Shown: positions 47,046 through 63,896 of the stretch, one piece after another | Layout: every line of letters starts with the position of its first letter | Numbering within the stretch: the first letter of the stretch is position 1 | Assembly: GCF_000423065.1 (NCBI RefSeq) | Contig: NZ_AUHG01000018.1 | Span: forward strand, 1 to 64,000 | Length of the DNA: 64,000 nt | Reading direction: 5' to 3' | Origin: Christiangramia echinicola DSM 19838 | GTDB taxonomy: Bacteria; Bacteroidota; Bacteroidia; Flavobacteriales; Flavobacteriaceae | Notes under the pieces: generated by a model | What the model was told of the DNA's origin: nothing | The model's input: the letters and a program-made list of their open reading frames with translations, nothing else | Databases searched by the model: none | Made by a program: the position numbers and the translations under genes

Positions 47046-49781
47046 TTAATCAGCAATATTAGGATTCAACCACTTTTCTGCTTTTTTATATTCTATTCCT
47101 TTTCTTTCGGCATAATCCTTAACCTGATCTTCTTTGATTTTTCCGAGACCAAAATATTTAACTTCAGGATTAGCAAAATAATAACCACTTACACTAGCCG
47201 CAGGCCACATCGCCAGGCTTTCAGTAAGCTCAACCCCGATTTTTTCCTTTACTTTAAGAATCTCCCAGATCGTTAGTTTTTCCAGATGATCCGGGCACGC
47301 AGGATAACCAGGTGCTGGCCGGATACCTTTATACTCTTCTTTGATCAAGGCCTCGTTGGTAAGATTCTCTGTTTCGGCATACCCCCAATCTTCTGTTCTC
47401 ACTTTCTTATGCAGGTATTCAGCAAAAGCTTCGGCTAATCTATCAGCCAGGGCTTTGATCATGATCGAGTTGTAATCATCCAGATCCCTTTCAAACCCCT
47501 GCGCTAATTCCTGGGTTCCAAAACCTGTAGTCACACAAAAACAGCCTATATAATCCTGAACGCTATTTTCTTTTGGAGCTATAAAGTCTGATAACGCATA
47601 ATTCGGCTGGGCTCCATGCTTTTTCAATTGCTGACGAAGTGTTCTGAAAATGGCAGTTTTCTGTTCTGAATCTTCAGAAAATTTTACTTCAATATCATCG
47701 TCTTCAACAGAATTCGCTTCAAATAATCCAAATGTAGCTTTAGCCTTCAGCAGTTTTTCCTTCAAAATTCGTTGTAGTAAAACCTGGGCATCTTCAAATA
47801 AACTCTTGGCTTGCTCTCCAACTTTTTCATCTTTCAGAATATCTGGATAGCGGCCATGCAGATCCCAGCTCCTAAAAAATGGAGACCAGTCGATATATTC
47901 CAGTAAATTTGAAAGATCAAAGTCCTCTATCACCTGTGTACCGAGCTTATTCGGTTTTTTGATCTCCGTTTTCTTCCAGTCAATTTGAAATTTATTTTTT
48001 CGGGCTTCTTCAATACTTAGAAATGATTTCACCTTACTTCGCTTCTTGAAATTAAGGCGGAAAGTATCATAGTCGGTTTTAAGATCACGCTTGTATTTTT
48101 CTTTCGTACTCTCTTTCAGCAATTGTCCAACAACAGTCACCGCCCGGGAAGCGTCATTTACATGCGCAACGGCATTCTTATATTGCGGATCTATTTTAAC
48201 TGCGGTATGCGCTTTAGAAGTTGTTGCACCACCTATCAATAAAGGGACAGAAAAATCCTGACGTTCCATTTCCTTCGCCAGAAATACCATCTCATCAAGG
48301 GACGGAGTAATAAGTCCGCTGAGACCTATGACATCTACATTCTCTCTTTTGGCTGTTTCGATGATCTTCTCGGGTGGCACCATCACACCAAGATCGATGA
48401 TCTCGTAGTTATTACATCCCAAAACTACAGCCACGATGTTTTTACCAATATCATGCACATCACCTTTGACAGTAGCCATTAATACTTTTCCAGCCGACTG
48501 TCTTTTATTCGATTTATCGGCTTCGATATAAGGTAATAAATGCGCTACGGCTTTTTTCATTACGCGGGCAGATTTTACTACCTGCGGCAGGAACATTTTA
48601 CCACTTCCGAAGAGATCACCCACTACGTTCATCCCAATCATTAATGGACCTTCGATCACATCTAAAGGTTTTTCAGCTTCTATGCGCGCCTGTTCAATAT
48701 CTTCAAGAATATAGGCATCAATTCCTTTTACCAGGGCATGTGTAATTCTATCCTGTAATGCTTTCTCGCGCCAGGAAAGGTCTATTTTATTCTCTTTTTT
48801 CCGACCTACCACATTTTCAGCAAAGTCCAGTAAACGCTCGGTAGCATCATCCCTGCGATCTAAAATTACATCTTCTACGTGTTCCAGAAGTTCTTTTGGA
48901 ATCTCATCATAAACTTCCAGCATCGAAGGATTCACGATCCCTATATTCATCCCGGCTTTGATCGCATGATATAGGAAAACTGAATGCATGGCTTCCCGTA
49001 CCGGGTTATTCCCACGGAAGGAAAATGAAACATTGCTCACTCCACCGCTCACACTACAGTACGGCAAATTTTCTTTAACCCATCGGGTACCTTCTATAAA
49101 GTCGATAGCGTTTCTTTTGTGTTCATCCATTCCAGTTCCCACCGGGAAAATATTCAGATCAAAAATGATGTCTTCCGGAGGAAATTTTACCTGATTGACG
49201 AGAATGTCATAGGAGCGTTTGGCAATTTCAATGCGACGTCCATAATTATCTGCCTGCCCTTTTTCGTCAAAAGCCATCACGATCACCGCAGCACCATAAC
49301 GTTTGATCTTTTTCGCATGAGAGATGAATTCTTCTTCCCCTTCCTTTAAACTGATGGAATTCACCACGCATTTCCCCTGAACTACCTGAAGTCCGGCCTC
49401 AATGATATCCCATTTGGAACTATCTATCATAATAGGCACACGGGAAATATCGGGTTCAGCAACCACGAGATTGAGGAACTTTATCATGGCTTCTTTCCCT
49501 TCAATAAGGCCATCGTCCATGTTCACGTCGATGATCTGTGCACCGTTTTCTACCTGTTCCCGGGCAACTTCCAGCGCTTCATCAAACTTCTCTTCTTTAA
49601 TGAGACGCAGGAATTTTTTAGATCCGGCAACATTGGTTCGTTCTCCTACATTTATAAAATTACTATCCGGTGTGATCACCAAAGGTTCCAGACCTGATAG
49701 CTTTAGAGGTCTAACGGTCCCTCCCGGCCTCAGTGGGGAGGCGTCTATCTTGTTAACTGAATTTGTACCTGTTGTACTCAT
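47046..49781 (-). CDS. metH: Methionine synthase, folate/cobalamin/activation half
   Basis: 911 residues, equal to E. coli MetH from the pterin-binding domain onwards. The methyl-THF domain (about 30-300, [15 protein letters not shown]) comes first, then the cap and cobalamin domain (GDVHDIGKN, with the His ligand of B12), and last the SAM-dependent reactivation domain ([14 protein letters not shown], at about 830). The homocysteine domain is a separate gene directly upstream, so the enzyme is split in two. It depends on B12; no B12-independent metE is in the window. Confidence 0.95.
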
Positions 49782-49796
49782 AATTCATAATTTTTC

Positions 49797-49877
49797 GTCA
49801 CCCTGAACTTGATTCAGGGTCTCTTATTCTTTATAAATCGGTTGATTGTTGAGATGCTGAAACAAGTTCAGCATGAC
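49797..49877. repeat. Dispersed repeat between the metH halves, entering the coding region
   Basis: An imperfect inverted-repeat element: CCCTGAACTTGATTCAGGGT on the left and GCTGAAACAAGTTCAGCATGACG on the right. Its right half lies within the 3' end of the homocysteine-domain gene. Confidence 0.75.
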
Positions 49878-50886
49878 GTTCTTCTTTGTTTTCTGAAGGG
49901 ATCGGTCTTGGCTTGTAACCCTTTGTAATCTCTGCTATTGCTTTAATGTGTTTTGGAGTGGTTCCGCAGCAACCGCCGAGGATATTTACCAGACCTTTAT
50001 CAAGATATTCTTCGATTTGAGCTGCCATTTCCCGGTCATCCTGATCGTACTCACCAAATGCATTAGGTAAGCCCGCATTAGGATAGGCAGAAACACCGGA
50101 GTTCGCATAGCGATTCAGAACTTCCAGGTGCGGAGTCAGTTGTTTTGCACCAAGTGCGCAATTAAAACCAACGCTTAAAAGTGGAATATGAGACACTGAA
50201 ATAAGGAAAGCTTCTGCCGTCTGGCCGGAAAGGGTTCTTCCGGAAGCATCGGTAATGGTTCCGCTTACCATGATCGGAATATCAAGATTCAGTTCTTCTT
50301 TTAATTCTTCGATCGCAAAAAGTGCTGCTTTCGCATTCAATGTATCAAATACGGTTTCTACCAGAAGAACATCTGCTCCACCTTCGATCAATGCTTTTGC
50401 TTGTTGCTTATAGGCTTTCCGAAGCTGATCAAAAGAAATTGCGCGATAGCCGGGATCGTTCACATCCGGACTCATACTCGCCGTTTTGTTGGTGGGACCT
50501 ATTGCACCAGCTACGAATCTTGGTTTCGATGGATCTTCAGCAGTGACCTGCTCCGCTACACCTTTCGCAATTCTGGCCGACTCAAAATTAAGCTCGTAAA
50601 TGAACTCTTCCATTTGATAATCGGCCATCGCGATGGTAGTTCCGGAGAAAGTATTGGTTTCTACAATATCGGCTCCGGCATCAAAGTATTTTCGATGGAT
50701 GGTGGCAATAGCTTCAGGTTGGGTAAGGGAAAGCAGGTCATTATTTCCTTTCAAAGAAACGGGCCAGTCGGCAAAACGTTTTCCGCGGAAATCGTCTTCA
50801 GAAAATTTATATTCCTGAAGCATGGTACCCATGGCACCGTCTAGTATTAATATTTTTTGAGAGAGTAACTCTTCTAATTTCGACAT
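49831..50886 (-). CDS. metH: Methionine synthase, homocysteine-binding half
   Basis: 351 residues of the homocysteine S-methyltransferase domain (DGAMGTMLQ start, [17 protein letters not shown], and the zinc ligands in [14 protein letters not shown]). The last 15 or so residues ([15 protein letters not shown]) are encoded by an intergenic repeat, so the natural end was probably earlier. It works with the product of the next gene to methylate homocysteine. It is the first gene after the SAM-I riboswitch. Confidence 0.95.
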
Positions 50887-50939
50887 GATTATTCAAATAA
50901 TACGATATCAAAAAAAGAAGACTGGAAAGAATTCTGTTT

Positions 50940-51039
50940 GTTATCTATCCGAGACTGAACTCAGTAGAATGTAGCACCTTCTCCTAAGGAGGGTTGCTAA
51001 GGTTTCACAGGGTCTAATCCCTCAACCTTTCTTGATAAC
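50940..51039 (-). ncRNA. SAM-I (S-box) riboswitch controlling metH-metF
   Basis: P1 is GUUAUC (51039-51034) with GAUAAC (50945-50940). The core matches the S-box consensus: UCAAGAAAGGUUGAGGGA, then ACCCUGUGAAACCUUAGCAACC, then AAGGUGCUA. P2 is AAGGUU/AACCUU, P3 is CUCCU/AGGAG and P4 is ACUGA/UCAGU. No clear terminator follows before the ATG at 50886, so control may be translational. High SAM is expected to lower metH expression. Confidence 0.95.
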
Positions 51040-51068
51040 GAATGTTAGTAAACAATGAACTTAGGGGA

Positions 51069-52237: not shown

Positions 52238-53302
52238 TTAAACACTAATACTTTTCACCACTTCTCGTTTTGCTTCTTTTTTAGTTCCGTCGAAACCTTC
52301 AACCCCGCCTACAGTCGTGTACTTCAACACATACTTCTTATCTGGATTGATTCGCGCATAAGCACTCTGGCACATGATCGCAGCTTCGTGAAAGCCAGAC
52401 AATATTAGCTTCAGTTTTCCTTTATAGGTATTCACATCGCCTATCGCATAAACCCCGGGAATATTAGTTTGGTAATCATAAGAATTATCTACTTTGATCG
52501 CATTCTTTTCAATTTCCAACCCCCAGCTTCCAATAGGTCCAAGTTTTGGCGATAACCCGAATAGTGGAATAAAATCATCTACTTCCCTGAACTCTTCACC
52601 ACGCGCTTTATCCTTATGCCGAATGACCACTTTCTCCAAATGATCCTTCCCTTGGAGGCCAACAACTTCTGCATTGGTGATCATTTCAATTTTTCCAAGT
52701 TTAGCCAATTCTGAAACTCTTTCTACGGAATCTAATGCTCCACGGAATTCTTCCCTTCTGTGTACTAAAGCAACTTCTGAAGCAACATCGGCTAAATAAA
52801 TCGCCCAATCTAAAGCAGAATCCCCGCCACCAGCGATCACTACACTTTTATTACGATACACTTCAGGATCCTTAATAAAATAAGATACTCCCTTATCTTC
52901 AAAATCTGCGATATTAGGAATTGGAGGTTTGCGTGGCTCAAAAGAACCAAGTCCGCCTGCAATTGCAACAACGGGGGCGTGATGCTGAGTTCCCTTATTC
53001 GTAGTTACAATGAAAGTCCCGTCATCAAGTTTTTCTAAAGTTTCAGCTCGCTCTCCAAGTGTAAAACCAGGCTCAAAAGGTTTTATTTGCTCCATTAGAT
53101 TCTTAACAAGATCACCCGCAAGGATCTCTGGAAATGCGGGAATATCGTAAATAGGTTTTTTGGGATAGATCTCGGAACACTGTCCGCCAGGTTGAGGGAG
53201 AGCATCAATTAGATGTGTTTTTAGTTTTAGAAGTCCCGCTTCGAATACGGTAAACAATCCTGTGGGTCCTGCTCCAATGATCAGGATATCTGTTTTAATC
53301 AT
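52238..53302 (-). CDS. Ferredoxin-NADP reductase, thioredoxin-reductase-like type
   Basis: 354 residues. FAD-binding GAGPTGLF and NADPH-binding GGGDSALDWA Rossmann motifs are present, and the thioredoxin reductase CxxC is absent, which marks the YumC/type-2 FNR family. GVYAIGDVNTY is the FAD C-terminal motif. It overlaps the siroheme gene by 8 bp, so it is the last gene of the sulfite reduction operon. It likely passes NADPH electrons through ferredoxin to sulfite reductase (context inference). Confidence 0.9.
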   Translation of the reverse strand: MIKTDILIIGAGPTGLFTVFEAGLLKLKTHLIDALPQPGGQCSEIYPKKPIYDIPAFPEILAGDLVKNLMEQIKPFEPGFTLGERAETLEKLDDGTFIVTTNKGTQHHAPVVAIAGGLGSFEPRKPPIPNIADFEDKGVSYFIKDPEVYRNKSVVIAGGGDSALDWAIYLADVASEVALVHRREEFRGALDSVERVSELAKLGKIEMITNAEVVGLQGKDHLEKVVIRHKDKARGEEFREVDDFIPLFGLSPKLGPIGSWGLEIEKNAIKVDNSYDYQTNIPGVYAIGDVNTYKGKLKLILSGFHEAAIMCQSAYARINPDKKYVLKYTTVGGVEGFDGTKKEAKREVVKSISV

Positions 53303-53888
53303 TTTTCTCCTTTTTATATATTAAAGATTCAGTAATACTATTCATTTGTTCCACTTTGGCTTCGAAATCACCTTTGATGGATTTTCGATATTCATTCAAA
53401 TTCTCCACCATTTCATTTACATTTTCGGGAATCACTTCTTCAAAAAACTGTCGTAAACGCTTTGCGGTTGTTGGTGATTTTCCATTAGTGGAAATGGCGA
53501 TTTTCACATGCCCTTTATTTACGATCCCGCCCATATAGAAATCGCATAACTCCGGTGTATCTGCGATATTCGCCAGTAAAAATCTTTTTTTGGCGTCTTT
53601 ATACACTCTTTTATTGAGTTTTGCATCGTTTGTTGCAGCGATTACAAAATGCCGCTTCTTAAGATATTTTCGTTTATACCTTCCCTTTGTCAATTTAGCT
53701 CCGTGTTTTCTGGCAAGCTCTTCTGTTTCCGGTAAAAACCATTTTGCTACCAACTCTACCTTCGCATTAGGACTGGATTTAAATAGAAAATGAAGCTTTT
53801 CGTGACCTACATTTCCACCACCAACTACCAAAATTTTAAGTTGATTCACTTTTAAAAAAACCGGATATAATTCGTTTCTCTCTTCCAT
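53295..53888 (-). CDS. Precorrin-2 dehydrogenase / sirohydrochlorin ferrochelatase
   Basis: 197 residues, equal to the N-terminal CysG (CysG-B) or Met8p. The NAD motif is VVGGGNVGHEKLHFL, followed by FVIAATNDAKLN and VKIAISTNGKSPTTAKRLRQFFEEV. With CobA it makes siroheme, the cofactor of the sulfite reductase in the same operon. Methyltransferase and dehydrogenase are two genes here, unlike the fused CysG of E. coli. Confidence 0.92.
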   Translation of the reverse strand: MEERNELYPVFLKVNQLKILVVGGGNVGHEKLHFLFKSSPNAKVELVAKWFLPETEELARKHGAKLTKGRYKRKYLKKRHFVIAATNDAKLNKRVYKDAKKRFLLANIADTPELCDFYMGGIVNKGHVKIAISTNGKSPTTAKRLRQFFEEVIPENVNEMVENLNEYRKSIKGDFEAKVEQMNSITESLIYKKEKND

Positions 53889-53907
53889 TTTTTTGTTTAA
53901 TAATTCG

Positions 53908-54001
53908 CATTTCGACTCCGCTCAATGTGACAAACTTTTATTTTGTCAAGCTGAACTCGATTCAGGTTCTCTAGAGATCCTGAATCAAGTTCAGGATGAC
54001 G
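53908..54001. repeat. Dispersed intergenic repeat between cobA and the siroheme gene
   Basis: Contains TTTCGACTCCGCTCAATGTG followed by GTCAAGCTGAACTCGATTCA and ATCCTGAATCAAGTTCAGGA, the same units as at 63147-63245 in the other order. It is non-coding and interrupts an operon without breaking it. Confidence 0.78.
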
Positions 54002-54011
54002 TGTTTAAGTT

Positions 54012-54800
54012 TTAAGCTGCTCCTACTTTTACATATTTCGATCTCGGAAGGTTTTTTACATTCTGAAAAACTGTTTGCAAAGCATTCGCTTCCCGAACCA
54101 CCTCACCAATGACTATAATGGCAGGTGCGCCCAATTGTTTTTCTGAAACGATATTTTCAATCGTTTTGATAGTCCCAAAACCTGACTGCTCATTTACCGT
54201 AGTTCCATTTTGGATAATTCCTACGGGAATATCTTCCTTTCCGAAACCACTAAAAACCTCTACGATTTCTTTCAGTTTTCCCATTCCCATGAGAATCACC
54301 ACAGTTGCTGTGGATTGTGCGGCTAAACGAACATCATTCGATATTTTTCGCTGGGAAGTAGTTCCTGTAATCACCCAGAAACTTTCTGAAGTTCCTCTTT
54401 GTGTGAGCGGAATACCAACATTGGCCGGCACCGCGATCGAAGAGGTGATTCCTGAGACCACCGCCGTTTCCAATCCATGTTTCCTGGCATAGTTGATCTC
54501 TTCAGATCCCCTTCCGAAAATAAAAGGATCTCCTCCTTTAAGTCTTACCACATGTCCTCGCTCCCGGGCATATTTTACGATCAATTCATTGATCTCTTCC
54601 TGAGGAAGGCGATGTTTATCCTTTCGTTTTCCCACAAAAATATGTCTCGCTTGGGGTGCATATTCCAATAGGTCTATATTGATAAGGGCATCATACAGAA
54701 TTACGTTAGCCGACTTTAAAGTATTCAAAGCCTTTACCGTGATCAATTCCGGATCTCCCGGCCCGGCGCCTACAACCGTAAGTTTTGGTGAATTAAACAT
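54012..54800 (-). CDS. cobA: Uroporphyrinogen-III C-methyltransferase
   Basis: 262 residues from the ATG at 54800 (MFNSPKLTVVGAGPGDPELI). The longer frame from 54827 lies inside the sulfite reductase gene. The start overlaps that gene's end by 8 bp. SAM-binding blocks are VGAGPGDPELITVKA, LKGGDPFIFGRGSEEI and GITSSIAVPANVGIPLTQRG. It converts uroporphyrinogen III to precorrin-2, the first step to siroheme. Confidence 0.95.
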   Translation of the reverse strand: MFNSPKLTVVGAGPGDPELITVKALNTLKSANVILYDALINIDLLEYAPQARHIFVGKRKDKHRLPQEEINELIVKYARERGHVVRLKGGDPFIFGRGSEEINYARKHGLETAVVSGITSSIAVPANVGIPLTQRGTSESFWVITGTTSQRKISNDVRLAAQSTATVVILMGMGKLKEIVEVFSGFGKEDIPVGIIQNGTTVNEQSGFGTIKTIENIVSEKQLGAPAIIVIGEVVREANALQTVFQNVKNLPRSKYVKVGAA

Positions 54801-56886
54801 TCTGTACCTCCTTCGTTCTATAAGCATCCACTCTATTCAGAAATAACTGCGCATCCTCTAAATACTTGCTGGCAAAGTCTTCGCTGGGTTCATGCTGGTT
54901 TAACTGGTATGCAAATTCTTTAAATGTGGTCGCTAGATCGATCTTGCCGGTTTCAACAAATAGTTCATCAAATTGAGCAATGATTCCAGCCTGAGTATTC
55001 GTCTTTACATCTTCAGCCAGCAGCAAGGCTTTCGCTGAATTTACTATCGAAGTGTACGCGTGATAAATACTATCTGCCCAGTCCTTTCGTTCCATCGCAG
55101 ATTTCGCATTATCGATCTTTTCTTCACTTTCGAATAAAAGGGTCGCAATTAGATCTATCACAACCCCAGCACATTCTCCTACTCCAACAGCTTTGATATA
55201 AGGCGATTCATGCCCCCAATCCACAAAGTCATTTTCGGTAAGATTGGAAGTATCAGCCAGGTCTTTCAGCAGATCATAGAAATAGGTCTTTTCTTTTCGA
55301 TCATAGTATTCCACGAATTTTTCATCCTGTTCTGAATTGGCTTCAAAATCATTTAACAATACGCGAAGAGCTTCCGGACCACGTTTACTGGGAACCTTTA
55401 CCAGTTTATCAGCAAATCTCCCCTGACCATTTCCTAAAGTTCCGCCACCCAGCAATACCTGAAGTGCCGGAGCAACCGTTTTCCCGACTTTTATAGACAT
55501 ACCCTGGAAGCCGATTTCAGCCATATTATGCTGGCCGCAGGCATTCATACATCCGCTGATCTTTATGGTGATATCCTTTCCATTCGTGAATTGTGGATAT
55601 TCTTCCTTTAGAACATCTTCCAGCACATCGGCGATTCCGGTACTGCTAGCAATTCCCAGATTACAGGTATCGGTTCCCGGGCAGGCCGTAATATCTACGG
55701 TTTTATTATAGCCGGTTTCTGCATAGCCCAGCTTTTTTAATTCTGAATAAAAGAAAGGAAGAAATTCTTCACGTACATGACGTATCAGAATATCCTGTCT
55801 TAGGGTTAATCTTATTTCGTTTCCGGCATATTTCTTTACCAGACCTGCCAGCTGTCTCGCGCCACCAGTATAAAAATCCCCTAACGGAACCCGAATTCCA
55901 ATAGCGAATAAGCCTTCCTGCTTCTGGGCAGACACATTGGTTTTCTTCCAGTTTTCGAATTCTTTCTCATCGCCAATTTCTACAGAAGGAACTTCTACAT
56001 CCTGCAAAGGCGGGGCTGCTTCAAATTTCTCAATTTCAAATTTTGGTTGCTTCTGAGAAAGGGCCGTCTTCTGTTCCTCGACCAGCTTCATAAAAGCTTC
56101 TTTTCCGATATCCTTCAGAAGGAATTTCATTCTTGCTTTTAATCGTTTTGCACGTTCACCATGACGATCAAAAACCCGCAGAACACCTTCAATTAGAGGT
56201 ATGATCTCTTCCGCAGGTAAAAAGTCATATAACTCATCTGCATGCCGGGGTTGTGAGCCCAGACCGCCACCAAGCATTACTTTGAATCCGCGTTTTCCGT
56301 CCTTCAGTTTGGCGATAAAACCAAGATCATGTATATAACTAAGGGCAGTATCTTCATCTGAAGAAGAAAAGGACATCTTAAATTTTCTACCCATTTCCTG
56401 GCAAATAGGATTACGAAGAAAAAATTGAAATACAGCGTGTGCATATGGTGAGACATCGAAAGGCTCGTTGGGATCTATCCCAGCGGTTGGCGAAGCTGTA
56501 ATATTTCTTACCGTATTCCCGCAGGCTTCCCTAAGAGTAACATCATCTTTTTCCAGTTGCGCCCAAAGCTCGGGAGTCCTGTCCAGACTCACGTAATGGA
56601 TCTGGATATCCTGTCTGGTTGTAATATGCAGCCGACCTTTGGAATACTCATCTGAAACATTAGCGATCCGGTGTAATTGTTCTGAAGTTACCTTTCCAAA
56701 CGGCAGTTTTATACGAACCATTTGAACTCCAGACTGTCGCTGTCCATAGACTCCACGTGCCAGGCGCAGGCTACGAAATTTCTCTTCATCAGCCTTTCCT
56801 TCGCGAAAAAGCCTGATCTTTTTTTCTAAATCCAGGATATCTTTCTCGACAACGGGATTTTCAATTTCGGTTCTAAAACTTTGCAT
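54793..56886 (-). CDS. Assimilatory sulfite reductase (siroheme, ferredoxin type) with C-terminal HEPN domain
   Basis: 697 residues. The duplicated nitrite/sulfite reductase core (about 1-540) has TTRQDIQIHYV and LRQDILIRHV, and the siroheme/4Fe-4S ligands C-x5-C (ACPGTDTCNLG) and C-x3-C (GCMNACGQHN). About 120 C-terminal residues (EKIDNAKSAMERKDWADSIY, HAYTSIVNSAKALLL) look like a HEPN domain; the R-x4-6-H nuclease motif was not seen. Sulfite and not nitrite is the likely substrate, judged from cysH and the met genes. An attenuator with a Cys/Met leader precedes it. Confidence 0.9.
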   Translation of the reverse strand: MQSFRTEIENPVVEKDILDLEKKIRLFREGKADEEKFRSLRLARGVYGQRQSGVQMVRIKLPFGKVTSEQLHRIANVSDEYSKGRLHITTRQDIQIHYVSLDRTPELWAQLEKDDVTLREACGNTVRNITASPTAGIDPNEPFDVSPYAHAVFQFFLRNPICQEMGRKFKMSFSSSDEDTALSYIHDLGFIAKLKDGKRGFKVMLGGGLGSQPRHADELYDFLPAEEIIPLIEGVLRVFDRHGERAKRLKARMKFLLKDIGKEAFMKLVEEQKTALSQKQPKFEIEKFEAAPPLQDVEVPSVEIGDEKEFENWKKTNVSAQKQEGLFAIGIRVPLGDFYTGGARQLAGLVKKYAGNEIRLTLRQDILIRHVREEFLPFFYSELKKLGYAETGYNKTVDITACPGTDTCNLGIASSTGIADVLEDVLKEEYPQFTNGKDITIKISGCMNACGQHNMAEIGFQGMSIKVGKTVAPALQVLLGGGTLGNGQGRFADKLVKVPSKRGPEALRVLLNDFEANSEQDEKFVEYYDRKEKTYFYDLLKDLADTSNLTENDFVDWGHESPYIKAVGVGECAGVVIDLIATLLFESEEKIDNAKSAMERKDWADSIYHAYTSIVNSAKALLLAEDVKTNTQAGIIAQFDELFVETGKIDLATTFKEFAYQLNQHEPSEDFASKYLEDAQLFLNRVDAYRTKEVQNV

Positions 56887-56904
56887 GATCTTGATTATTT
56901 AAAT

Positions 56905-56945
56905 GAAAAAAGTCCTTTTAAGAATGACACTTAAAAGGACTTTTT
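56905..56945 (-). terminator. Attenuator terminator before sulfite reductase
   Basis: AAAAGTCCTTTTAAG, a 7- to 8-base loop and CTTAAAAGGACTTTT form a long stem on the minus strand followed by T. It lies between the leader peptide and the sulfite reductase ATG. The leader's stop region carries CTTAGAAG, which can replace CTTAAAAG of the 3' arm. Confidence 0.88.
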
Positions 56946-56970
56946 ATAATTCAGTTTATAAAATGGACTT

Positions 56971-57033
56971 CTAAGTATGAGGCGAATAGCACATACACAT
57001 ATAACAAATGATATTTTTAAGATATTGGATCAT
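56971..57033 (-). CDS. Cys/Met-rich attenuation leader peptide of the sulfite reductase gene
   Basis: A 20-codon frame (ATG at 57033, TAG at 56971-56973) encodes MIQYLKNIICYMCMCYSPHT. Three Cys and two internal Met codons lie within six positions of one another. An in-frame ATG at 57054 overlaps the cysH stop. Its last codons (CTTAGAAG, 56968-56975) can pair with CTTTTAAG in the 5' arm of the next terminator. It resembles Cys-rich uORF leaders described in mycobacteria, but the function here is an inference from codons and structure. Confidence 0.78.
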   Translation of the reverse strand: MIQYLKNIICYMCMCYSPHT

Positions 57034-57046
57034 AGTTCTTTCAGGC

Positions 57047-57706
57047 TTATGCATGTAAACCGCACTCTCTATTAGATAATACTTTTGTAGGATCGAAATA
57101 TTTAAATTCGTTCGGTAATTTATTTTTTTTGAGATATTCGTCCAGCTTTTCATCGCTCCAGTGGTAAAAAGGACTCACTTTAAGTAAGCCGTCTTTACTA
57201 TAACTCAGGATATCTATACTATCTCGAAAAGCTGTCTGACCCTTTCTAAGATTCGTAAACCACACATCTGGTTGTTCAAGTGCCATTGCTCTTTGAAAAG
57301 GTTCTAATTTCACCTGTTTGGTATATTCTTCGTGCAATGGACTATTCACATCCGGAATACCATTATTCAAGGCATCTCTGTAAGCTGCGGTTTGTTTCGG
57401 GGTATATAATTTGACATTCAAATTAAGCTGCTTTATTACTTCATCTGCATGCCTGTAGGTTTGAGGAGTATTATAACCTGTATCGCACCATACCACGGTA
57501 GTATCCGGTTTTTCAGTAATTACCGCGTGTAAAATTGCCGCCTCGTATGGCCGAAAATTCGTTGTGATCACGGGTTTTCTGCTATTTACCAATACCCATC
57601 TAATCACTTCTGGAGGGTCTATCCCCTTTAGCTGACTGTTCAAAGCCTTTAATTCTTTTGCCGAATACTTTCTCATAATCCCTCTTTTTTCCAAAGTCGC
57701 TTCCAT
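57047..57706 (-). CDS. cysH: Phosphoadenosine phosphosulfate (or APS) reductase
   Basis: 219 residues. PAPS-reductase blocks are VITTNFRPYEAAILH, VWCDTGYNTPQTYRHAD, WFTNLRKGQTAFR and the catalytic C-terminal motif RECGLH. The two Cys pairs (CC...CxxC) that ligate the 4Fe-4S cluster of APS reductases are not seen, so PAPS may be preferred. It produces sulfite for the next gene. ATP sulfurylase genes (cysD, cysN), often adjacent in flavobacteria, are absent from the window. Confidence 0.92.
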   Translation of the reverse strand: MEATLEKRGIMRKYSAKELKALNSQLKGIDPPEVIRWVLVNSRKPVITTNFRPYEAAILHAVITEKPDTTVVWCDTGYNTPQTYRHADEVIKQLNLNVKLYTPKQTAAYRDALNNGIPDVNSPLHEEYTKQVKLEPFQRAMALEQPDVWFTNLRKGQTAFRDSIDILSYSKDGLLKVSPFYHWSDEKLDEYLKKNKLPNEFKYFDPTKVLSNRECGLHA

Positions 57707-57810
57707 AAAACTATAATCCTATCGGTTTACTAGGTTTTAAGCAAAACTAAACTTCGCCTGTTTAAACACCAATTATTTCCTTAATAAAAATCTTATTTTA
57801 ACACTTCAGG

Positions 57811-58227
57811 CTATTGCGTGATAGCAATATCTTCCAAAGTGTTTTCACCAAGTACATTTAGTGAAGCATCCCTCACCTGTATCATCAGTTTATGAACTGA
57901 ACAGGTATTCTCATCAGGACAATCATCACACTTTTCATAATAATTAAGGCTAACGCAGGGAACCATTGCGATAGGCCCTTCTAAAACCCGGATCACTGCG
58001 GTCATTTTTATTTCCTGAGGTTCTTTTATTAAATAATAACCTCCGCCTTTACCCTTTTTCGAGCCTAGAAATCCTGATTTTCTGAGTTCCAGCATAATAC
58101 TCTCCAGGAACTTCTGAGAAATATTCTCACTTTCAGATATCTCTGAGGCCTGGACCGGATTCCTGTCCTTTTTTCTGGCGATGTACGCCAGTGCCTTAAT
58201 TCCGTACTTGGTCTTTTTGGAAAGCAT
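57811..58227 (-). CDS. Rrf2 family transcriptional regulator
   Basis: 138 residues. The winged HTH is at the N-terminus (TKYGIKALAYIARK, KFLESIMLELRKSGFLGSKKG, GGGYYL). Four cysteines (91, 100, 103, 109) lie in PCVSLNYYEKCDDCPDENTC, the region that binds an Fe-S cluster in IscR/NsrR, though the spacing is different. Family members include IscR and the cysteine regulator CymR. Embedded between metZ and cysH, it likely regulates sulfur assimilation; the signal (cluster, O-acetylserine or other) is unknown. Confidence 0.9.
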   Translation of the reverse strand: MLSKKTKYGIKALAYIARKKDRNPVQASEISESENISQKFLESIMLELRKSGFLGSKKGKGGGYYLIKEPQEIKMTAVIRVLEGPIAMVPCVSLNYYEKCDDCPDENTCSVHKLMIQVRDASLNVLGENTLEDIAITQ

Positions 58228-58259
58228 AGGACGAATATAAAATATTCCCTTTGCTTTCT

Positions 58260-59477
58260 CTAATTGTTCAACGCGTTTTTTAAATCCTTAATTATATCAT
58301 CTATATGTTCCAATCCAACGGAGATCCTTACAAGTCCGTCGCTAATTCCCGCATCCAGACGCTCACTTTCACTAAGCTTACTATGAGTTGTAGAAGCCGG
58401 ATGCGTAACTATGGTCCTGGTATCCCCGAGATTTGCCGACCTGCTGCAAAGCTGAAGTCGGTCAATAAATCTTCTACCAGCTTCTATTCCTCCTTTTATT
58501 TCGAAGGCGACCACATTCCCTCCTAGTTTCATCTGTTTTTTGGCAATTTCATATTGCGGATGAGATCTTAAAAATGGATATTTCACATTTTCAGTTTCGT
58601 CCAGGGTTTCCAGAAACTCAGCCACTTTTAAGGCATTTTCGCAATGCCTTTCTAAACGAACCGGAAGGGTTTCCAGGCTTTTAGAAAGTATCCAGGCATT
58701 GAAAGGAGAAAGTGCCGGCCCTGTATTTCTACTGAAAAGATAAATTTCCCGAATTAGATCTTCTCTACCTACAGTGACTCCACCAAGGACCCTACCCTGC
58801 CCGTCTATTAATTTAGTAGCCGAATGTAGTACCAGGTCTGCCCCAAATTTTATCGGATTCTGTAAATACGGAGTTGCAAAACAGTTATCGATGATCAGAA
58901 TCAGATCATGCTTTCTGGCAATTTCACCCAGATATTCCAGATCCAGAATATCAACTCCGGGATTGGTTGGAGATTCTGCAAAAAGGACTTTGGTTTCCGG
59001 TTTAATTAGTGCTAGAATATCTTCAGGTTGATTCACATCAAAATAGGAATGTGAAATATTCCACTTCGGAAAATACTTCGTAAACAAGCCATGGGTAGAA
59101 CCAAAAACCGATCTTGCCGCCACAATATGATCTCCACTATTCAGCAAAGCCGCCAGGGTGGAAAATACAGCCGCCATACCAGTAGCAAAAGCGTAGCCTC
59201 CTTCTGCGCCTTCCATCTTCACAATTTTCTCCACAAGTTCTGAAGTATTCGGATTGGTAAATCGGCTATAGATATTACGTTCTTTCTCTTCGGCAAAACT
59301 CGCTCTCATATCTTCTGAATCTTCAAAGACATAACTTGAAGTAAGAAAAAGCGGCACAGAGTGCTCCTGAAATTGAGTTCTTTCACTTTGGGTTCTTACA
59401 GCAATCGTCTCAAAATTCTCCTGAGAATAGGCGTTTCCGTTTATTTGTTCTGTCCCGATAGCTTGTAGGTTTTCCAT
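58260..59477 (-). CDS. metZ: Trans-sulfuration PLP enzyme, O-succinylhomoserine sulfhydrylase-like
   Basis: 405 residues of the Cys/Met metabolism PLP family. The PLP Lys is in LHSATKLIDGQGR, and YSRFTNPNTSE, ATGMAAVFSTL and AESPTNPGVDI are typical. The HSATK...GRVLGG form favours MetZ, which makes homocysteine from an acylated homoserine and sulfide. Cystathionine gamma-synthase is the alternative. A second enzyme of this family, metY, is three genes upstream in the same series, so the two may use different acyl groups or act under different conditions. Confidence 0.87.
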   Translation of the reverse strand: MENLQAIGTEQINGNAYSQENFETIAVRTQSERTQFQEHSVPLFLTSSYVFEDSEDMRASFAEEKERNIYSRFTNPNTSELVEKIVKMEGAEGGYAFATGMAAVFSTLAALLNSGDHIVAARSVFGSTHGLFTKYFPKWNISHSYFDVNQPEDILALIKPETKVLFAESPTNPGVDILDLEYLGEIARKHDLILIIDNCFATPYLQNPIKFGADLVLHSATKLIDGQGRVLGGVTVGREDLIREIYLFSRNTGPALSPFNAWILSKSLETLPVRLERHCENALKVAEFLETLDETENVKYPFLRSHPQYEIAKKQMKLGGNVVAFEIKGGIEAGRRFIDRLQLCSRSANLGDTRTIVTHPASTTHSKLSESERLDAGISDGLVRISVGLEHIDDIIKDLKNALNN

Positions 59478-59483
59478 CTTATT

Positions 59484-60557
59484 TTAATTTAATCGTTCAG
59501 ATATTTTTAAAATATCTCCAAATACTCCCCTTGCAGTCACCTCTGCCCCAGCACCGGCTCCTCGAATCACCAAAGGCTGATCTTTATAGGATTCGGTATA
59601 GATCTCAAAAACATTATCGGCTCCTTCAATTTGTCCCAGAACTGAGGATTTTGGTTCATTGATAAGTTTTGCTTCCAGTTCCCCGGTTTCGGCATTTAAT
59701 TCACCTATATATCGCAGAACATCATTGGTAAGTTTCTTAGTTTTAAAATTCCTAAAATGAACATCCAGTTCTCCAGTTCTTTTGTTGAACTCATCCAAAG
59801 TTGTATTTCCATTCAATTGCTTCGGAATTAAAGACTGGATCTTTACTTCTTCAAATTCCTTTTGCAATTCCAGTTCACGGGCAAGAATGAGCAATTTTCT
59901 ACCAACATCCTTTCCACTCAGGTCTACCCTTGCATCAGGTTCAGTATACCCCAATACACCTGCTTCCTTAAGCACTTCTGAAAATTCTTTTTCTTCTTCA
60001 GAATACGTATTGAAAATATAACTCAGGGAACCAGAAAAAACTCCTCTTATTCTCGTCACTTTCTCTCCGGAAAGGTGCAGAATTCTCAAAGTTTCGACTA
60101 TCGGAAGTCCTGCACCAACATTGGTTTCGTAAATGAACTTCTTGTTATTTTTCTTCAGTTCTTCTCTCAACTTTCTATAAAATTCGGTAGACAGGGTATT
60201 AGCAACTTTATTAGCCGCGATAATATGACTTCCGGAATTTATCAGCGAGATGTAATTTTCTGGAAATTCGTCACTGGCCGTTGTATCTATGGAAACAAGA
60301 TTCTCAAAATCATTTCTTCTGAAATACTCCTGAATATCCTCAAAAGAATAGCGCTGCGAATTAGTTTTGAACCCGTTATTCCAACCAGATTTTATCCCGT
60401 TTGGGTTTAGAAAAGCATGGGAAGAATCTGCCACCAGGATCACTTTTACAATGATGCCTGATGATTTCTTCAGATGTTCCTCAGATTTGGCAAGTTGTTC
60501 CAGCAGTTTGCTGCCTACTTTACCCGGCCCAAACAGAGCGAGATGAATCGTTTTCAT
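59484..60557 (-). CDS. hom: Homoserine dehydrogenase
   Basis: 357 residues, matching the C-terminal half of ThrA/MetL. The NAD(P) motif is LFGPGKVGSKLLEQL, and ANKVANTLS, YETNVGAGLPIVETLR, GVFSGSLSYIFN, LGYTEPDARVDLSGKDVGRKL and the catalytic Lys in this last block are visible. No aspartokinase or ACT domain is attached. It supplies homoserine for metX, whose 3' end overlaps its start by 38 bp. Confidence 0.92.
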   Translation of the reverse strand: MKTIHLALFGPGKVGSKLLEQLAKSEEHLKKSSGIIVKVILVADSSHAFLNPNGIKSGWNNGFKTNSQRYSFEDIQEYFRRNDFENLVSIDTTASDEFPENYISLINSGSHIIAANKVANTLSTEFYRKLREELKKNNKKFIYETNVGAGLPIVETLRILHLSGEKVTRIRGVFSGSLSYIFNTYSEEEKEFSEVLKEAGVLGYTEPDARVDLSGKDVGRKLLILARELELQKEFEEVKIQSLIPKQLNGNTTLDEFNKRTGELDVHFRNFKTKKLTNDVLRYIGELNAETGELEAKLINEPKSSVLGQIEGADNVFEIYTESYKDQPLVIRGAGAGAEVTARGVFGDILKISERLN

Positions 60558-61533
60558 ATCTTTTTTGTGTTATTTGAAATATTGGTTTTAAAAATTGATT
60601 GAGCTGATCTGTCTCGATCAGAAATGCATCGTGCCCATGAATTGATCTTATTTCATGAATGCTGATATTTGGTTTTAACAGGGATAATTCCACGTAGGTA
60701 TTCCAATTCTCTTCCGCCAAGAAAAACAGATCTGAATTCACTGTTACCAGGTGCACATTCCCCTTGATCCTGTTGGCTGCTTCCAAATAATTTCCGCTGC
60801 CATCACTAATATCAATCGTAGTGAGCAAATGATTCATCAATTTATAAGAAGGAAGCGTGAAGCGGTTCTTCAACTTTTCGCCATGATGCAAAAGCCAGTT
60901 TTCAACTTCAAAACTTTGGTTTTCCTTGTTTCTTTTTCCTTCAAATTTTTGAGCCAGCGAATGCGGAGTCCTGTAAAAGGTCATCGCATGCATACGGGCA
61001 TCATGAACAGGATTAGATGAATTATTCAAAATATGATCCTGTATTCTGCAATTGGCCACCAGCCAGTCGGTAGATTTGTAATCGCAGGCGATCGGAATGA
61101 TATTCTCAGCCAGGTCTGGTTTTAAAACTGCCAGTTCCCAGGCCAGTGCACCACCTATACTTCCACCAATAATGGCAAAAAGCCTGGTAATATTCAGCTT
61201 TTCCAATGCCAGTGACTGAATCTTTGCAATATCTCTTAATCTGAATTCCTTATAATTTTCAAAGAACTGATCTTCGTGACCTTTGAATCCGTTGCCGGGA
61301 ATATTAAAGGCAAGCACGCAGAACTTATCTATCTCGATACATTTATTTTTACCTATAAGATCCTTCCACCATCCTTTGCTTCCTGTAACCAGCGAGTTAC
61401 CGGTTAGGGCATGATTTACCAATATGATCGGGGCCTCTGTTGGCTTTTTTCCGAAGAACTGGTAGCTCAGGTGAATATCCTGAACAGTTCCTGCGGAATT
61501 TTTAAAGTTTTCTATTTTAATCTCTTCAAGCAT
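60520..61533 (-). CDS. metX: Homoserine O-acetyltransferase
   Basis: 337 residues from the ATG at 61533 (MLEEIKIENFKNSAGTV). A frame extension to 61587 covers a hairpin and is not family-like. The alpha/beta-hydrolase fold has VNHALTGNS, nucleophile Ser in IGGSIGGALAWE, Asp in VTVNSDLFFLAEE and His in SIHGHDAFLIE. It activates homoserine with acetyl-CoA (or succinyl-CoA; acyl preference cannot be read with certainty). It lies between metY and hom, all coupled. Confidence 0.9.
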   Translation of the reverse strand: MLEEIKIENFKNSAGTVQDIHLSYQFFGKKPTEAPIILVNHALTGNSLVTGSKGWWKDLIGKNKCIEIDKFCVLAFNIPGNGFKGHEDQFFENYKEFRLRDIAKIQSLALEKLNITRLFAIIGGSIGGALAWELAVLKPDLAENIIPIACDYKSTDWLVANCRIQDHILNNSSNPVHDARMHAMTFYRTPHSLAQKFEGKRNKENQSFEVENWLLHHGEKLKNRFTLPSYKLMNHLLTTIDISDGSGNYLEAANRIKGNVHLVTVNSDLFFLAEENWNTYVELSLLKPNISIHEIRSIHGHDAFLIETDQLNQFLKPIFQITQKRYENDSSRSVWAG

Positions 61534-61546
61534 CTCTTTTAATTTA

Positions 61547-61576
61547 ATCCGGAAAAGGCCTTGACCTTTCCCGGAT
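61547..61576 (-). other. Hairpin between metY and metX
   Basis: A 12-bp stem (ATCCGGGAAAGG with CCTTTTCCGGAT on the minus strand, one G-U) and 6-base loop, with no T run. It may be an RNA processing or stability element within the operon. Confidence 0.45.
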
Positions 61577-61596
61577 CTATTAACCAAACCAACATT

Positions 61597-62889
61597 TTAA
61601 ACCAATGATTTCTTTTTAATTTGCGCAAAGGCCTCCTTGAGATCTGCCTTTAGATCCTCCACATCTTCAAGCCCAACAGAAAGCCGAATTAAGTCTGGAG
61701 TCACTCCCGTAGAAGCTTGCTCCTCTTCAGTTAATTGCTGATGCGTAGTACTTGCCGGGTGAATGATCAGTGATTTTGTATCTCCAATATTTGCCAGAAG
61801 TGAAAATACTTTTGACTCATCTACCACGGTTTTCGCAGCTTCAAATCCTCCTTTTACTCCAAAGGTTACCAGTCCGCTTTGACCTTCCGGAAGATATTCC
61901 TGGGCTAGTTTGTGATATTTACTGGATTTCAGACCTGGATAATTAACCCATTCTACTTCCTCCTGCTCCTGAAGCCATTCAGCAAGTTCCAGAGCATTTT
62001 TACTATGTTCTTTGATCCTGATCTTTAAAGTTTCCAGTCCCTGGATGATCTGGAAAGCGTTGAAAGGACTTAAGGCTGCACCATGATCTCTTAAACCTTC
62101 TATTCTCACTTTGGCGATAAATGCCGCTTCTTCGAGAGCTTCATGATAAACTAGCCCGTGGTATCCTGGTGAAGGCTCGGTGAACTCTGGGAATTTTCCA
62201 TTAGCCCAGTCAAATCTACCTGCATCGATGATCACGCCACCAAGCGCGGTTCCATTTTCGTTTATATATTTAGTTAAAGAATGAATTACGATATCTGCAC
62301 CATGTTCTATAGGATTCAGCAAATAAGGTGTAGCAACCGTATTATCTACAATAAATGGAACTTTAAAAGCTTTAGCTTCCCTGGAAATTCCTTTAAGATC
62401 CAGTACATCCAGTTTAGGATTTCCCACAGATTCAGCGAAGAATACCCGGGTATTTTCCTTTGCTGCTTTGGTGAAATTTTTAGGATCTGAAGGATCTACG
62501 AAAGTGGTAGTGATCCCGAATCTCGGTAATGTATTCTTAAATAGGTTATAAGTCCCTCCGTAAAGACTGTTGGAAGAAACGATATGGTCTCCGGCTTTAA
62601 GTAAAGTAAGTAGCGCTGTATTAGTCGCTGCTGTTCCAGAAGCGGTAACTACCGCTGCTATACCACCTTCCAGCGCCGCCAGCCGCTGTTCCAGAATATC
62701 CAGGGTTGGATTATTGATCCTGGTATAAATAAACCCGGGTTCGGCCAGAGAAAATAGATTTGCCGCGTGATCTGAATTATTGAAAACGTAAGAGGTGGTT
62801 TGATAAATTGGTACTGCTCTTGTTCCACCATTTTGTGTTACATCATGTCCTGCATGTAATGCTTTTGTTGAAAAATTCTTTGTGCTCAT
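61597..62889 (-). CDS. metY: O-acetylhomoserine sulfhydrylase
   Basis: 430 residues, longer than MetB/MetZ as is typical for MetY. The PLP Lys is in HSLTKYINENGTALGG, and HAGHD, AVPIYQTTSYVF, SGTAATNTALLT and SVGNPKLDVLD are characteristic. It makes homocysteine directly from O-acetylhomoserine and sulfide produced by the genes downstream. It is the first gene of the sulfur operon and lies 40 bp after an attenuator hairpin. Confidence 0.93.
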   Translation of the reverse strand: MSTKNFSTKALHAGHDVTQNGGTRAVPIYQTTSYVFNNSDHAANLFSLAEPGFIYTRINNPTLDILEQRLAALEGGIAAVVTASGTAATNTALLTLLKAGDHIVSSNSLYGGTYNLFKNTLPRFGITTTFVDPSDPKNFTKAAKENTRVFFAESVGNPKLDVLDLKGISREAKAFKVPFIVDNTVATPYLLNPIEHGADIVIHSLTKYINENGTALGGVIIDAGRFDWANGKFPEFTEPSPGYHGLVYHEALEEAAFIAKVRIEGLRDHGAALSPFNAFQIIQGLETLKIRIKEHSKNALELAEWLQEQEEVEWVNYPGLKSSKYHKLAQEYLPEGQSGLVTFGVKGGFEAAKTVVDESKVFSLLANIGDTKSLIIHPASTTHQQLTEEEQASTGVTPDLIRLSVGLEDVEDLKADLKEAFAQIKKKSLV

Positions 62890-62928
62890 AATATTGATTT
62901 TAAAAATGTTGATTTTGACCTAATAAAG

Positions 62929-62962
62929 AAGTCCCCCTGATATGCTATTACCAGGGGGACTT
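62929..62962 (-). terminator. Attenuator terminator before metY
   Basis: On the minus strand AAGTCCCCCTG and CAGGGGGACTT form an 11-bp GC-rich stem, followed by TCTTTATT. It is 24 bases after the leader stop codon and 40 before metY. Confidence 0.85.
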
Positions 62963-62985
62963 TTTGAATTGAACTTTATAACTAA

Positions 62986-63093
62986 TTAAATTCTCCGGTT
63001 TTGGCAATAGTTTGTCATGTGACGCATACACATCATATCCATACACATAGTCATCATTAGGTTACAAGTAGTTCTCATTAGTTCTCTTAACAT
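62986..63093 (-). CDS. Met/Cys-rich attenuation leader peptide proximal to metY
   Basis: A 35-codon frame (ATG at 63093, TAA at 62986-62988). Ten codons are Met and four are Cys, with the run NLMMTMCMDMMCMRHM in the middle. The likely start could instead be the ATG at 63078. Such a Met/Cys density is not expected by chance. It precedes a strong terminator and the first methionine gene. The antiterminator is weaker than in the other leaders (ACCGG may pair with CUGGU at the base of the 5' arm). Methionine or cysteine sensing is inferred. Confidence 0.82.
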   Translation of the reverse strand: MLRELMRTTCNLMMTMCMDMMCMRHMTNYCQNRRI

Positions 63094-63146
63094 TTAAAAC
63101 TCGATTTGGGAGCTTTGATATTTTACTGTTTCGTTTTTTTCTTTTT

Positions 63147-63245
63147 CGTCAAGCTGAATTTGATTCAGCTTCTCAATAGATCCTGAATCAAGTTCAGGAT
63201 GACGGTTTATTTTATTTCAACACTTCGACTGCGCTCAGTGTGACA
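63147..63245. repeat. Dispersed repeat between the two metY leaders
   Basis: GTCAAGCTGAATTTGATTCA, then ATCCTGAATCAAGTTCAGGA and CACTTCGACTGCGCTCAGTG. The units match those at 53908-54001. It separates the distal leader and terminator from the proximal ones. Confidence 0.78.
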
Positions 63246-63260
63246 AAAATCTGGATATAA

Positions 63261-63291
63261 AAAAAGCCGCTGCGGTTGGCAGCGGCTTTTT
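63261..63291 (-). terminator. Attenuator terminator of the distal Met/Cys leader
   Basis: AAAAAGCCGCTGC and GCAGCGGCTTTTT form a 13-bp stem with a 5-base loop and T run on the minus strand. CCGCAGCG of its 3' arm is duplicated in the leader at 63326-63333. Confidence 0.9.
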
Positions 63292-63310
63292 GCATTTATA
63301 TCTTTTCAGG

Positions 63311-63379
63311 TTATGCAATAGAGTGCGCTGCGGAAGTCTCCGGCATCATACACATCATATTACAAATTATACTGATCAT
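63311..63379 (-). CDS. Met/Cys-rich attenuation leader peptide, distal copy
   Basis: A 22-codon frame (ATG at 63379, TAA at 63311-63313) encodes MISIICNMMCMMPETSAAHS and IA. The run C-N-M-M-C-M-M is followed by codons containing CCGCAGCG, which is identical to the terminator's 3' arm and can pair with its 5' arm. Ribosome stalling in the Met/Cys run would leave this segment free and allow read-through. It has its own promoter at 63400-63431. The first gene downstream is metY, beyond the second leader. Confidence 0.85.
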   Translation of the reverse strand: MISIICNMMCMMPETSAAHSIA

Positions 63380-63399
63380 TTTTATTATTATTTCGTTTA

Positions 63400-63431
63400 C
63401 AAAGATAACGACGGACTTTTTTAATTTCCAA
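63400..63431 (-). promoter_or_regulatory. Promoter of the metY leader transcript
   Basis: The minus strand has TTG at 63431-63429 and TATCTTTG at 63407-63400, 21 bases apart, an exact -7 consensus. No comparable promoter is seen just before the proximal leader, so both leaders probably share this transcript. Confidence 0.72.
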
Positions 63432-63532
63432 GCGTTTAGATAAAAATTATTGAAAATAAATTTTTCGAGGTCTTTTTATAAGGATATAAAAATTAGACTG
63501 TTGTTTCATTAATTTATTCGGAAATGTCTTCT

Positions 63533-63635
63533 GCGTTAGGGATTGAGCGGGTTGTTTGAGCTCTCCCGGTTTTTCACCAGGAAGCGAGCCGCGAAAGCCC
63601 GGCGCAAGCCCTTTTCGGCGCAGCGCAACGCCCCA
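63533..63635. repeat. Dispersed GC-rich intergenic repeat
   Basis: CTGCGTTAGGGATTG at one end, GAAAGCCCGGCGC in the middle and CAGCGCAACGCCCC at the other. It is the same family as 46854-46970 in inverted orientation. A 74-codon frame across it (translation LNWGVALRRKGLAPG) is not a gene. Confidence 0.78.
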
Positions 63636-63715
63636 ATTCAGTATACTAATTACCAAAAACAGGTTGAACAAAGCCTATAAAAAATCGAAATTGGATAAAA
63701 TGACGTTAAATGCAA

Positions 63716-63744: not shown

Positions 63745-63759
63745 TAACCAACATATTGA

Positions 63760-63827
63760 AAGGGATAGATTTGACTGATTGCAACCCTATTATACTTTGA
63801 AGAAGTATTTTAAAATGCTAAAGCAGA
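63760..63827 (+). ncRNA. SAM-II-like riboswitch upstream of metK
   Basis: AAGGG at 63760 pairs with CCCUA at 63785. Between them AGAUUUGACUGAUUGCAA closely follows the SAM-II core (UGAUUUAACCGUAUUGCAA in the Sargasso Sea metX aptamer). The 3' part has AUGCUAAAGCAG, in which GCUAAA is conserved and CAG can pair with CUG of the loop to form the pseudoknot. An extra hairpin AUACUU/AAGUAU lies between the two. The identification is by eye from consensus. Confidence 0.65.
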
Positions 63828-63896
63828 ATGTTTACTACACTCCACTTAGCTCTTCACGTCAAATTTTTCCATTCTTATAATTAAAAAAGGAATTGA

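Follow-up and report, generated by a model that had tools for sequence, protein, structure and literature searches.

Tandem Met/Cys-rich leader peptides before metY in Christiangramia: candidate attenuators in series at a place held elsewhere by the SAM-I riboswitch

What is the role of two short reading frames, both dense in methionine and cysteine codons, that stand in tandem upstream of metY? We addressed this question in a window of 64,000 nucleotides of Christiangramia echinicola DSM 19838 (the whole stretch of DNA that was analysed) and in related loci. The first gene downstream of both frames is metY itself, encoding O-acetylhomoserine/O-acetylserine sulfhydrylase (minus strand, 61597..62889; TIGR01326, 637.8 bits against a cut-off of 495.1). 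Read along the minus strand, the order is a promoter, a 22-codon frame (leader 1, 63379-63311), a terminator, an interspersed repeat, a 35-codon frame (leader 2, 63093-62986), a second terminator and then metY, which starts at 62889; the original prediction had placed two Met/Cys-rich frames of these lengths in this region. Such frames are rare, as only 2 of the 736 ATG frames of this size class on both strands of the window reach at least six Met/Cys per 12 residues, namely leaders 1 and 2, and among 3000 dinucleotide shuffles of 62890-63440 one Met/Cys-rich frame arose in two and two frames in none. Past metY, same-strand genes at 53295..61587 (family matches, several below the curated cut-off) comprise a metX-like gene, a homoserine dehydrogenase-like gene, a second Cys/Met PLP enzyme, an Rrf2 regulator, PAPS reductase-like and sulfite/nitrite reductase-like genes, a uroporphyrinogen-III methyltransferase and a siroheme synthase N-terminal domain. 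They may be co-transcribed with metY and, because they resemble methionine and sulfur-assimilation genes, methionine and cysteine are fitting signals for this locus.

No family in Rfam 15 matches 62889-63500 at gathering score, neither a SAM-I nor a SAM-II aptamer is found before metY at that score, and on this basis we rejected a known riboswitch beneath the leaders. Riboswitches do occur elsewhere in the window: a SAM-I riboswitch (50938-51041, minus strand) precedes the methionine synthase gene metH (47046-50886, minus strand), which is split into two genes of 351 and 911 codons, the end of the first resembling a read-in repeat, and a SAM-II riboswitch (63755-63831, plus strand) precedes metK, divergent from metY. 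Several leader and SAM-I loci likewise have a SAM-II riboswitch close to metY on the other strand. Between metK and the leader-1 promoter lies a GC-rich block at 63540-63640.

Whether the two leaders share a transcript depends on where transcription begins. A Bacteroidota-type promoter (minus strand, 63400..63431; TTGG at 63431-63428 and TATCTTTG at 63407-63400) precedes leader 1 in the window, and our strict pattern is found before leader 1 in 22/23 Christiangramia, 7/9 Salegentibacter and 5/5 Gillisia loci and in 0/17 others; for a relaxed pattern the corresponding counts are 21/23, 7/9, 2/5 and 8/17. Taking these three genera together, the strict pattern stands before leader 1 in 34/37 loci and before leader 2 in 0/38, the relaxed pattern in 30/37 and 0/38, against shuffled controls in which the strict pattern occurs in 20 of 2680 and the relaxed pattern in 6 of 2680. 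Within Christiangramia, none of 24 loci has a strict promoter before leader 2, which bears out the earlier suggestion that only the leader distal to metY has a clear promoter, and the gates accordingly appear to act in series in these three genera. Before leader 2 of the other loci, mostly from Flavobacterium, the strict pattern is present in 2/42 and the relaxed pattern in 26/42; outside Christiangramia, Salegentibacter and Gillisia, each attenuator would seem able to stand alone.

The interspersed repeat (minus strand, 63147..63245) lies between the two attenuators and outside the switch itself. Its copies in the window (GTCATCCTGAACTTG; CACTGAGCGCAGTCGAAGTG) are found at 63147-63245, 53908-54000, 49863, 49797 and 47025, and repeat-related fragments occur between the leaders of several relatives. 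The repeat had originally been suspected of splitting a duplicated attenuator. It is indeed present, but we reject this origin because repeat fragments, sought with a list of short patterns, are absent between the leaders in 9/23 Christiangramia loci and in all 14 loci of Salegentibacter and Gillisia, and because the two leaders differ in both arm and terminator. The tandem is found in 9/9 Salegentibacter and 5/5 Gillisia loci and in 14 further loci, mostly from Flavobacterium, and its presence across these genera and Christiangramia indicates that it is old rather than a copy split by a repeat.

As in trp-type attenuators, each leader is a short ORF in which codons for the pathway's product are abundant, and its conservation suggests that it is translated. 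By sequence and fold, an intrinsic terminator lies between each leader ORF and metY, as had been proposed; with a lenient search, a terminator-like hairpin was found within 130 nt of all 134 tabulated leader frames (54 of leader 1 and 80 of leader 2, one more frame, in L101, having been omitted as unrelated). Computation also predicts for each leader an antiterminator that excludes the terminator and would be freed by a stalled ribosome, with co-variation that is clear for leader 1 and weak for leader 2.

Leader 1 (MISIICNMMCMMPETSAAHSIA), recognised by its open frame and its conservation, carries the Met/Cys run ICNMMCMM. Terminator 1 (minus strand, 63259..63287), AGCCGCTGCC-AACC-GCAGCGGCT followed by a U run, has its stem-loop at 63287-63265 with a predicted energy of -17.1 kcal/mol, and the U run reaches 63259, in agreement with the transcript end expected at 63261. 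The candidate antiterminator arm is GCAGCG (63326..63331, minus strand), formed by Ala-Ala codons, which complements CGCTGC in the 5' arm of terminator 1. A candidate protector pairing (1:2) lies upstream, where the Cys-Asn codons TGTAAT (segment 1, 63359..63364, minus strand) complement ATTGCA at 63319-63314, the last bases of leader 1.

Conservation of these pairings was assessed on an alignment (A1) drawn from 95 distinct loci, of which 52 matched the terminator-1 pattern and 50 were aligned; L058, in which a stop precedes the arm, and L103, truncated at the edge of its stretch (with MRFTMCHMCRMMSETSAE as leader 1), were omitted, and the pattern missed L011, L027 and L041, where leader 1 is present. 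Every one of the 50 rows has an open frame of 18-23 codons, even though the selecting pattern required no frame; in L087, leader 1 is without the characteristic Met/Cys run. Terminator 1 is paired in 100% of cells, the arm with the terminator in 97%, and the protector in 93.7%, with 13 double-change cells in the latter against 3.8 in shuffles. One position changes jointly in the arm and in both arms of the terminator: 34 of 50 rows read C-G-C, and the other 16, three of which are out of register by one base, read A or G-U-A. This triple change may be a single event on the tree; in Flavobacterium the arm is mostly GCAGAG, and both terminator arms change along with it. In three of the 50 rows (L057, L102 and L109, offset by one base in the MAFFT alignment) the arm is retained though read in another frame, which places selection in these rows on the RNA rather than on the peptide. 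The protector and the arm/terminator pairings together would give leader 1 the classical 1:2, 2:3 and 3:4 set. Taken locus by locus, the arm is weak evidence, mostly no better than shuffles: the fraction of shuffled tails that score as well ranges from 0.005 to 0.19 (median 0.06), with 20/54 loci at 0.05 or below. An inner helix of leader 1, paired in 72.6% of cells on the MAFFT alignment, is poorly aligned and was not counted as strong evidence, and we do not claim a small hairpin before the arm, which is paired in 70.5% of cells against 77% in a slid register. In L107 and L109, one more short frame, MKIAIYNPRRCCRMCS, which has no evident terminator, follows leader 1 and precedes metY.

Leader 2 (MLRELMRTTCNLMMTMCMDMMCMRHMTNYCQNRRI), likewise recognised by its open frame and conservation, carries the Met/Cys run NLMMTMCMDMMCM. 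Some leaders contain few Met/Cys residues, among them leader 2 of L025. Terminator 2 (minus strand, 62929..62962), AAGTCCCCCTGGTAATAGCATATCAGGGGGACTT followed by a U-rich tail, has a predicted energy of -23.6 kcal/mol. The candidate antiterminator arm, CTATTGCCA, spans Tyr-Cys-Gln codons (63002..63010, minus strand) and is complementary to TGGTAATAG in terminator 2. Across loci, the last codons of leader 2 (Tyr-Cys/Tyr-Gln) hold GCTATTRCCA, which complements TGGTAATAGC at the end of the terminator 5' arm and in its loop; this pairing holds in 93.7% of cells in an alignment (A2) of 42 of the 80 leader-2 loci, a further 28 going into alignment A3 and 10 into neither. In Flavobacterium the pairing is between TTGCCAAAAG and CTTTTGGTAA or a shorter form. 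Co-variation of this antiterminator is slight, with one double change and 194 of 500 shuffles scoring as high, and its pairing mostly reflects sequence conservation. The stem of terminator 2 shows compensating double changes at 7/9 pairs. Judged locus by locus, the fraction of shuffled tails that match the complementarity of the leader-2 arm is at 0.05 or below in 65/80 loci, and the 15 that miss this level (worst 0.88) include L075, L051, L087 and L060. No protector was found for the leader-2 arm, and in one genus (G123) terminator 2 looks decayed by eye. Between the leader-2 attenuator and metY, 14/105 loci (L060, L061, L067, L070 and ten others) share a conserved frame some 50-63 codons long that ends in ..KSLLFQMYDLEEEDLF; one example searched against Pfam matched no family above cut-off.

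From these features we consider it highly probable that metY is controlled by ribosome-mediated transcription attenuation that senses the charging of methionine and cysteine tRNAs, with two gates acting one after the other on a single transcript. Both leader peptides would sample Met and Cys codons during translation, and when charged Met-tRNA or Cys-tRNA runs short, the ribosome would stall in the Met/Cys run. The stalled ribosome would leave the arm free (GCAGCG for leader 1; GCTATTRCCA or a close variant for leader 2), and the free arm would capture the 5' arm or loop of the terminator, allowing RNA polymerase to continue to metY. With both amino acids ample, the ribosome would cover the arm, the terminator would fold and transcription would end. 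Since both gates must be passed, repression should multiply.

A simple footprint model, in which 9 bases downstream of the A-site codon are taken as covered, agrees with such a switch. With the A site on N7, M8, M9, C10, M11, M12 or P13 of leader 1, the best free fold is predicted to hold the antiterminator, which is absent from the best fold once the A site is at T15 or beyond. In leader 2, an A site on any tested codon from M13 to H25 permits the antiterminator, and one on M26 or beyond does not; M26, the last methionine of leader 2, is in the model too close to the arm, such that a stall there would not free it.

It had been argued that the initiator tRNA does not complicate this scheme, a view that now appears too simple: a shortage of methionine should also limit initiation, complicating any attempt to sense it by translation, and the folds predicted for untranslated leaders differ between the two. 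For leader 1, the predicted untranslated fold holds the protector in 28/50 rows, the antiterminator in 13/50 and neither in 9/50, and for leader 2 the antiterminator in 38/42 rows, these defaults being energy predictions with small differences (-18.8 against -18.1 kcal/mol for leader 1 of the window). We offer only as a tentative and rather doubtful idea that opposite defaults (an untranslated leader 1 off, an untranslated leader 2 on), combined with the arrangement in series, would enable the operon to distinguish scarcity of elongator Met-tRNA or Cys-tRNA from a general failure of initiation, and that such a charging sensor has repeatedly been swapped with SAM-I at one orthologous gene. Were the defaults truly opposite, they would answer the special problem of sensing methionine through translation.

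The original prediction had staked itself beforehand on the frames being present where close relatives carry the same gene, and both leaders precede metY in 23 of 24 Christiangramia genomes, the contig of the 24th having 167 bases upstream and leader 2 alone visible. MetY of the named Christiangramia neighbours is up to 97% identical to that of the window. Across the 95 distinct loci, which are skewed to near relatives by the choice of the best 80 of at least 572 confirmed matches, the Met/Cys cut-off finds both leaders in 51, leader 1 alone in 3 and leader 2 alone in 29, the count for leader 1 being too low, as L037 ends early, leader 1 of L103 lies just beyond the scanned stretch and that of L075 falls below the cut-off.

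Leaders of this kind also occur before other genes. In Flavobacterium, leader-1-type frames stand before cysE, the cysteine synthase gene cysK, cysJ and cysI; one precedes a PLP-enzyme gene in L159, and another, in the genus G102, a metX relative 54% identical to that of the window. In another family of the order (L160:340-597), two tandem Met/Cys-rich frames, the second with TCCCTMTMCCCNCCC, precede a small DUF2061-like gene (identified by eye), followed by cysH and cysD. Within the genome of the window, our leader-2 model (R2) has a single match at E 1e-5 or better, which lies at metY, and across 130 genomes leader 2 is found in seven at that level, always at metY. Six weaker matches of the leader-1 model (R1) in the genome of the window, at 39 bits or less, look like noise and were rejected as further copies, and we dismissed as chance an R1 match of 54 bits in G351, which has neither a Met/Cys frame nor a reference sulfur gene in the fetched stretch.

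What, then, controls metY where the leaders are absent? SAM-I precedes metY in 11 of 12 named loci without leaders (the twelfth, L065, ends early) and in 0/8 leader loci tested in the same scan. We extended this comparison to a family census of one genome per genus, in which metY is present in 85 of 130 genera. Among the matches listed, from which weak leader or SAM-I matches beside metY may be missing, together with 14 leftover genera read by eye and with Rfam, SAM-I lies directly upstream of metY in 61 genera, leaders in 14 and both in none. SAM-I stands 91-237 bases upstream in at least 59 genera, with two more found by scanning; leader 1 is placed before metY by the model in at least 12, including G025, whose match is weak (34 bits) but adjoins metY and has a Met/Cys frame. 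Two leader genera were added by eye, G048 and G030, the leaders of the latter lying at the end of another contig and presumably linked to metY. In the stretch scanned, none of the 14 leader genera has SAM-I before metY. The remaining 10 genera have neither; among them, G027 carries SAM-II upstream of metY, and G053 may possess a leader that differs in sequence. If the two elements were independent, an overlap of zero would have a probability of 5e-10, uncorrected for kinship. When 54 metY rows of our choosing are placed on a tree, the leader state needs seven changes, at least three of them forced by well-supported branches, in a bootstrap that had not converged. As the leaders occupy the place held by SAM-I in most metY genera, metY would there respond to tRNA charging, and also to cysteine. 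Five leader genera (L139-L143) have SAM-I directly between metY and metX, an arrangement that may subject the two genes to different signals, and in G150 (L144) metX is likewise preceded by SAM-I, which there lies about 1.1 kb beyond metY.

This exchange bears on other explanations of the leaders. Runs of Met and Cys are a typical feature of metal-binding peptides, and the leader peptides might themselves be functional in such a way, with the terminators merely ending small transcripts. Neither leader matches Pfam, as short peptides rarely do; against functional peptides stand also the three of 50 rows in which the C-terminal codons track the RNA arm and not the peptide, the placement before genes for sulfur amino acids and the exchange with SAM-I, and we regard this explanation as very improbable. 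It is also unlikely, if less so, that one gate alone senses amino acids while the other is constitutive or decaying and kept by descent. This would accommodate the 29 loci in which the Met/Cys cut-off recognises leader 2 without leader 1 (some of which end early or had leader 1 missed), the genera with leader 1 alone, the relaxed promoter before leader 2 in 26/42 loci outside Christiangramia, Salegentibacter and Gillisia, and the apparently decayed terminator 2 of G123, but it sits poorly with the retention of both leaders in all 37 loci of those three genera that have enough upstream sequence.

The two gates could also differ in signal, leader 1 answering mainly to methionine and leader 2 to methionine and cysteine, with additive or AND logic. 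Cys runs in leader 2 of many Flavobacterium loci, and a leader before a cysH gene that reads TCCCTMTMCCCNCCC, speak for such a division, against which conserved Cys codons are found in leader 1 too and the mix varies by species; we hold it to be a real possibility without favouring it. Being compatible with attenuators in series, it would refine that explanation.

Ribosome-mediated attenuation itself is old knowledge, and known means of methionine control include SAM riboswitches, T-boxes and the MetJ repressor, the SAM-I riboswitch sensing SAM directly. An attenuator that counts Met and Cys codons would be another answer to methionine control, with the puzzle that methionine also starts every protein. 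In the open-access literature, judged from titles, the beginnings of abstracts and some passages, we found no description of a Met-codon attenuator. Unnamed leader-peptide attenuators before amino-acid operons have been reported in Flavobacterium psychrophilum, of the same family (PMC9723704); section 19 of that paper names no Met/Cys operon and the words "metY" and "methionine" are absent from its main text, though its supplement may list metY, and part of the present finding may therefore already stand there.

The attenuators of the trp/his/thr type in enterobacteria share with the present ones a leader peptide with codons for the product, predicted alternative pairings (1:2, 2:3 and 3:4) and an intrinsic terminator, and leader 1 appears to have all four segments; the differences are the Met and Cys codons, the presence of two in series, the occurrence in Flavobacteriaceae, and a leader-2 arm that pairs with the terminator loop and the end of the 5' arm, with no protector found. 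In the Salmonella mgtCBR leader (PMC3641672), described by its authors as a singular example, tandem attenuators respond one to ATP and the other to proline; there too a leader holds two short ORFs, each part of an attenuator, whereas here both leaders carry the same kind of codon and precede a biosynthetic gene. Mycobacterial polycysteine ORFs (Canestrari 2020, as cited in PMC13236596), reported there as leaderless short ORFs acting by translation attenuation and, by title, cysteine-responsive, similarly place Cys codons before sulfur genes; unlike them, the present leaders have intrinsic terminators and Met codons. The SAM-I riboswitch (RF00162) holds the same position before metY, has no peptide and was not found there together with the leaders in our sample. 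The family offers a natural experiment, with several switches, in which the same gene is under a SAM sensor or a presumed tRNA-charging sensor, and it supplies like attenuators in tandem, the logic of which could be studied in a laboratory strain such as Flavobacterium johnsoniae.
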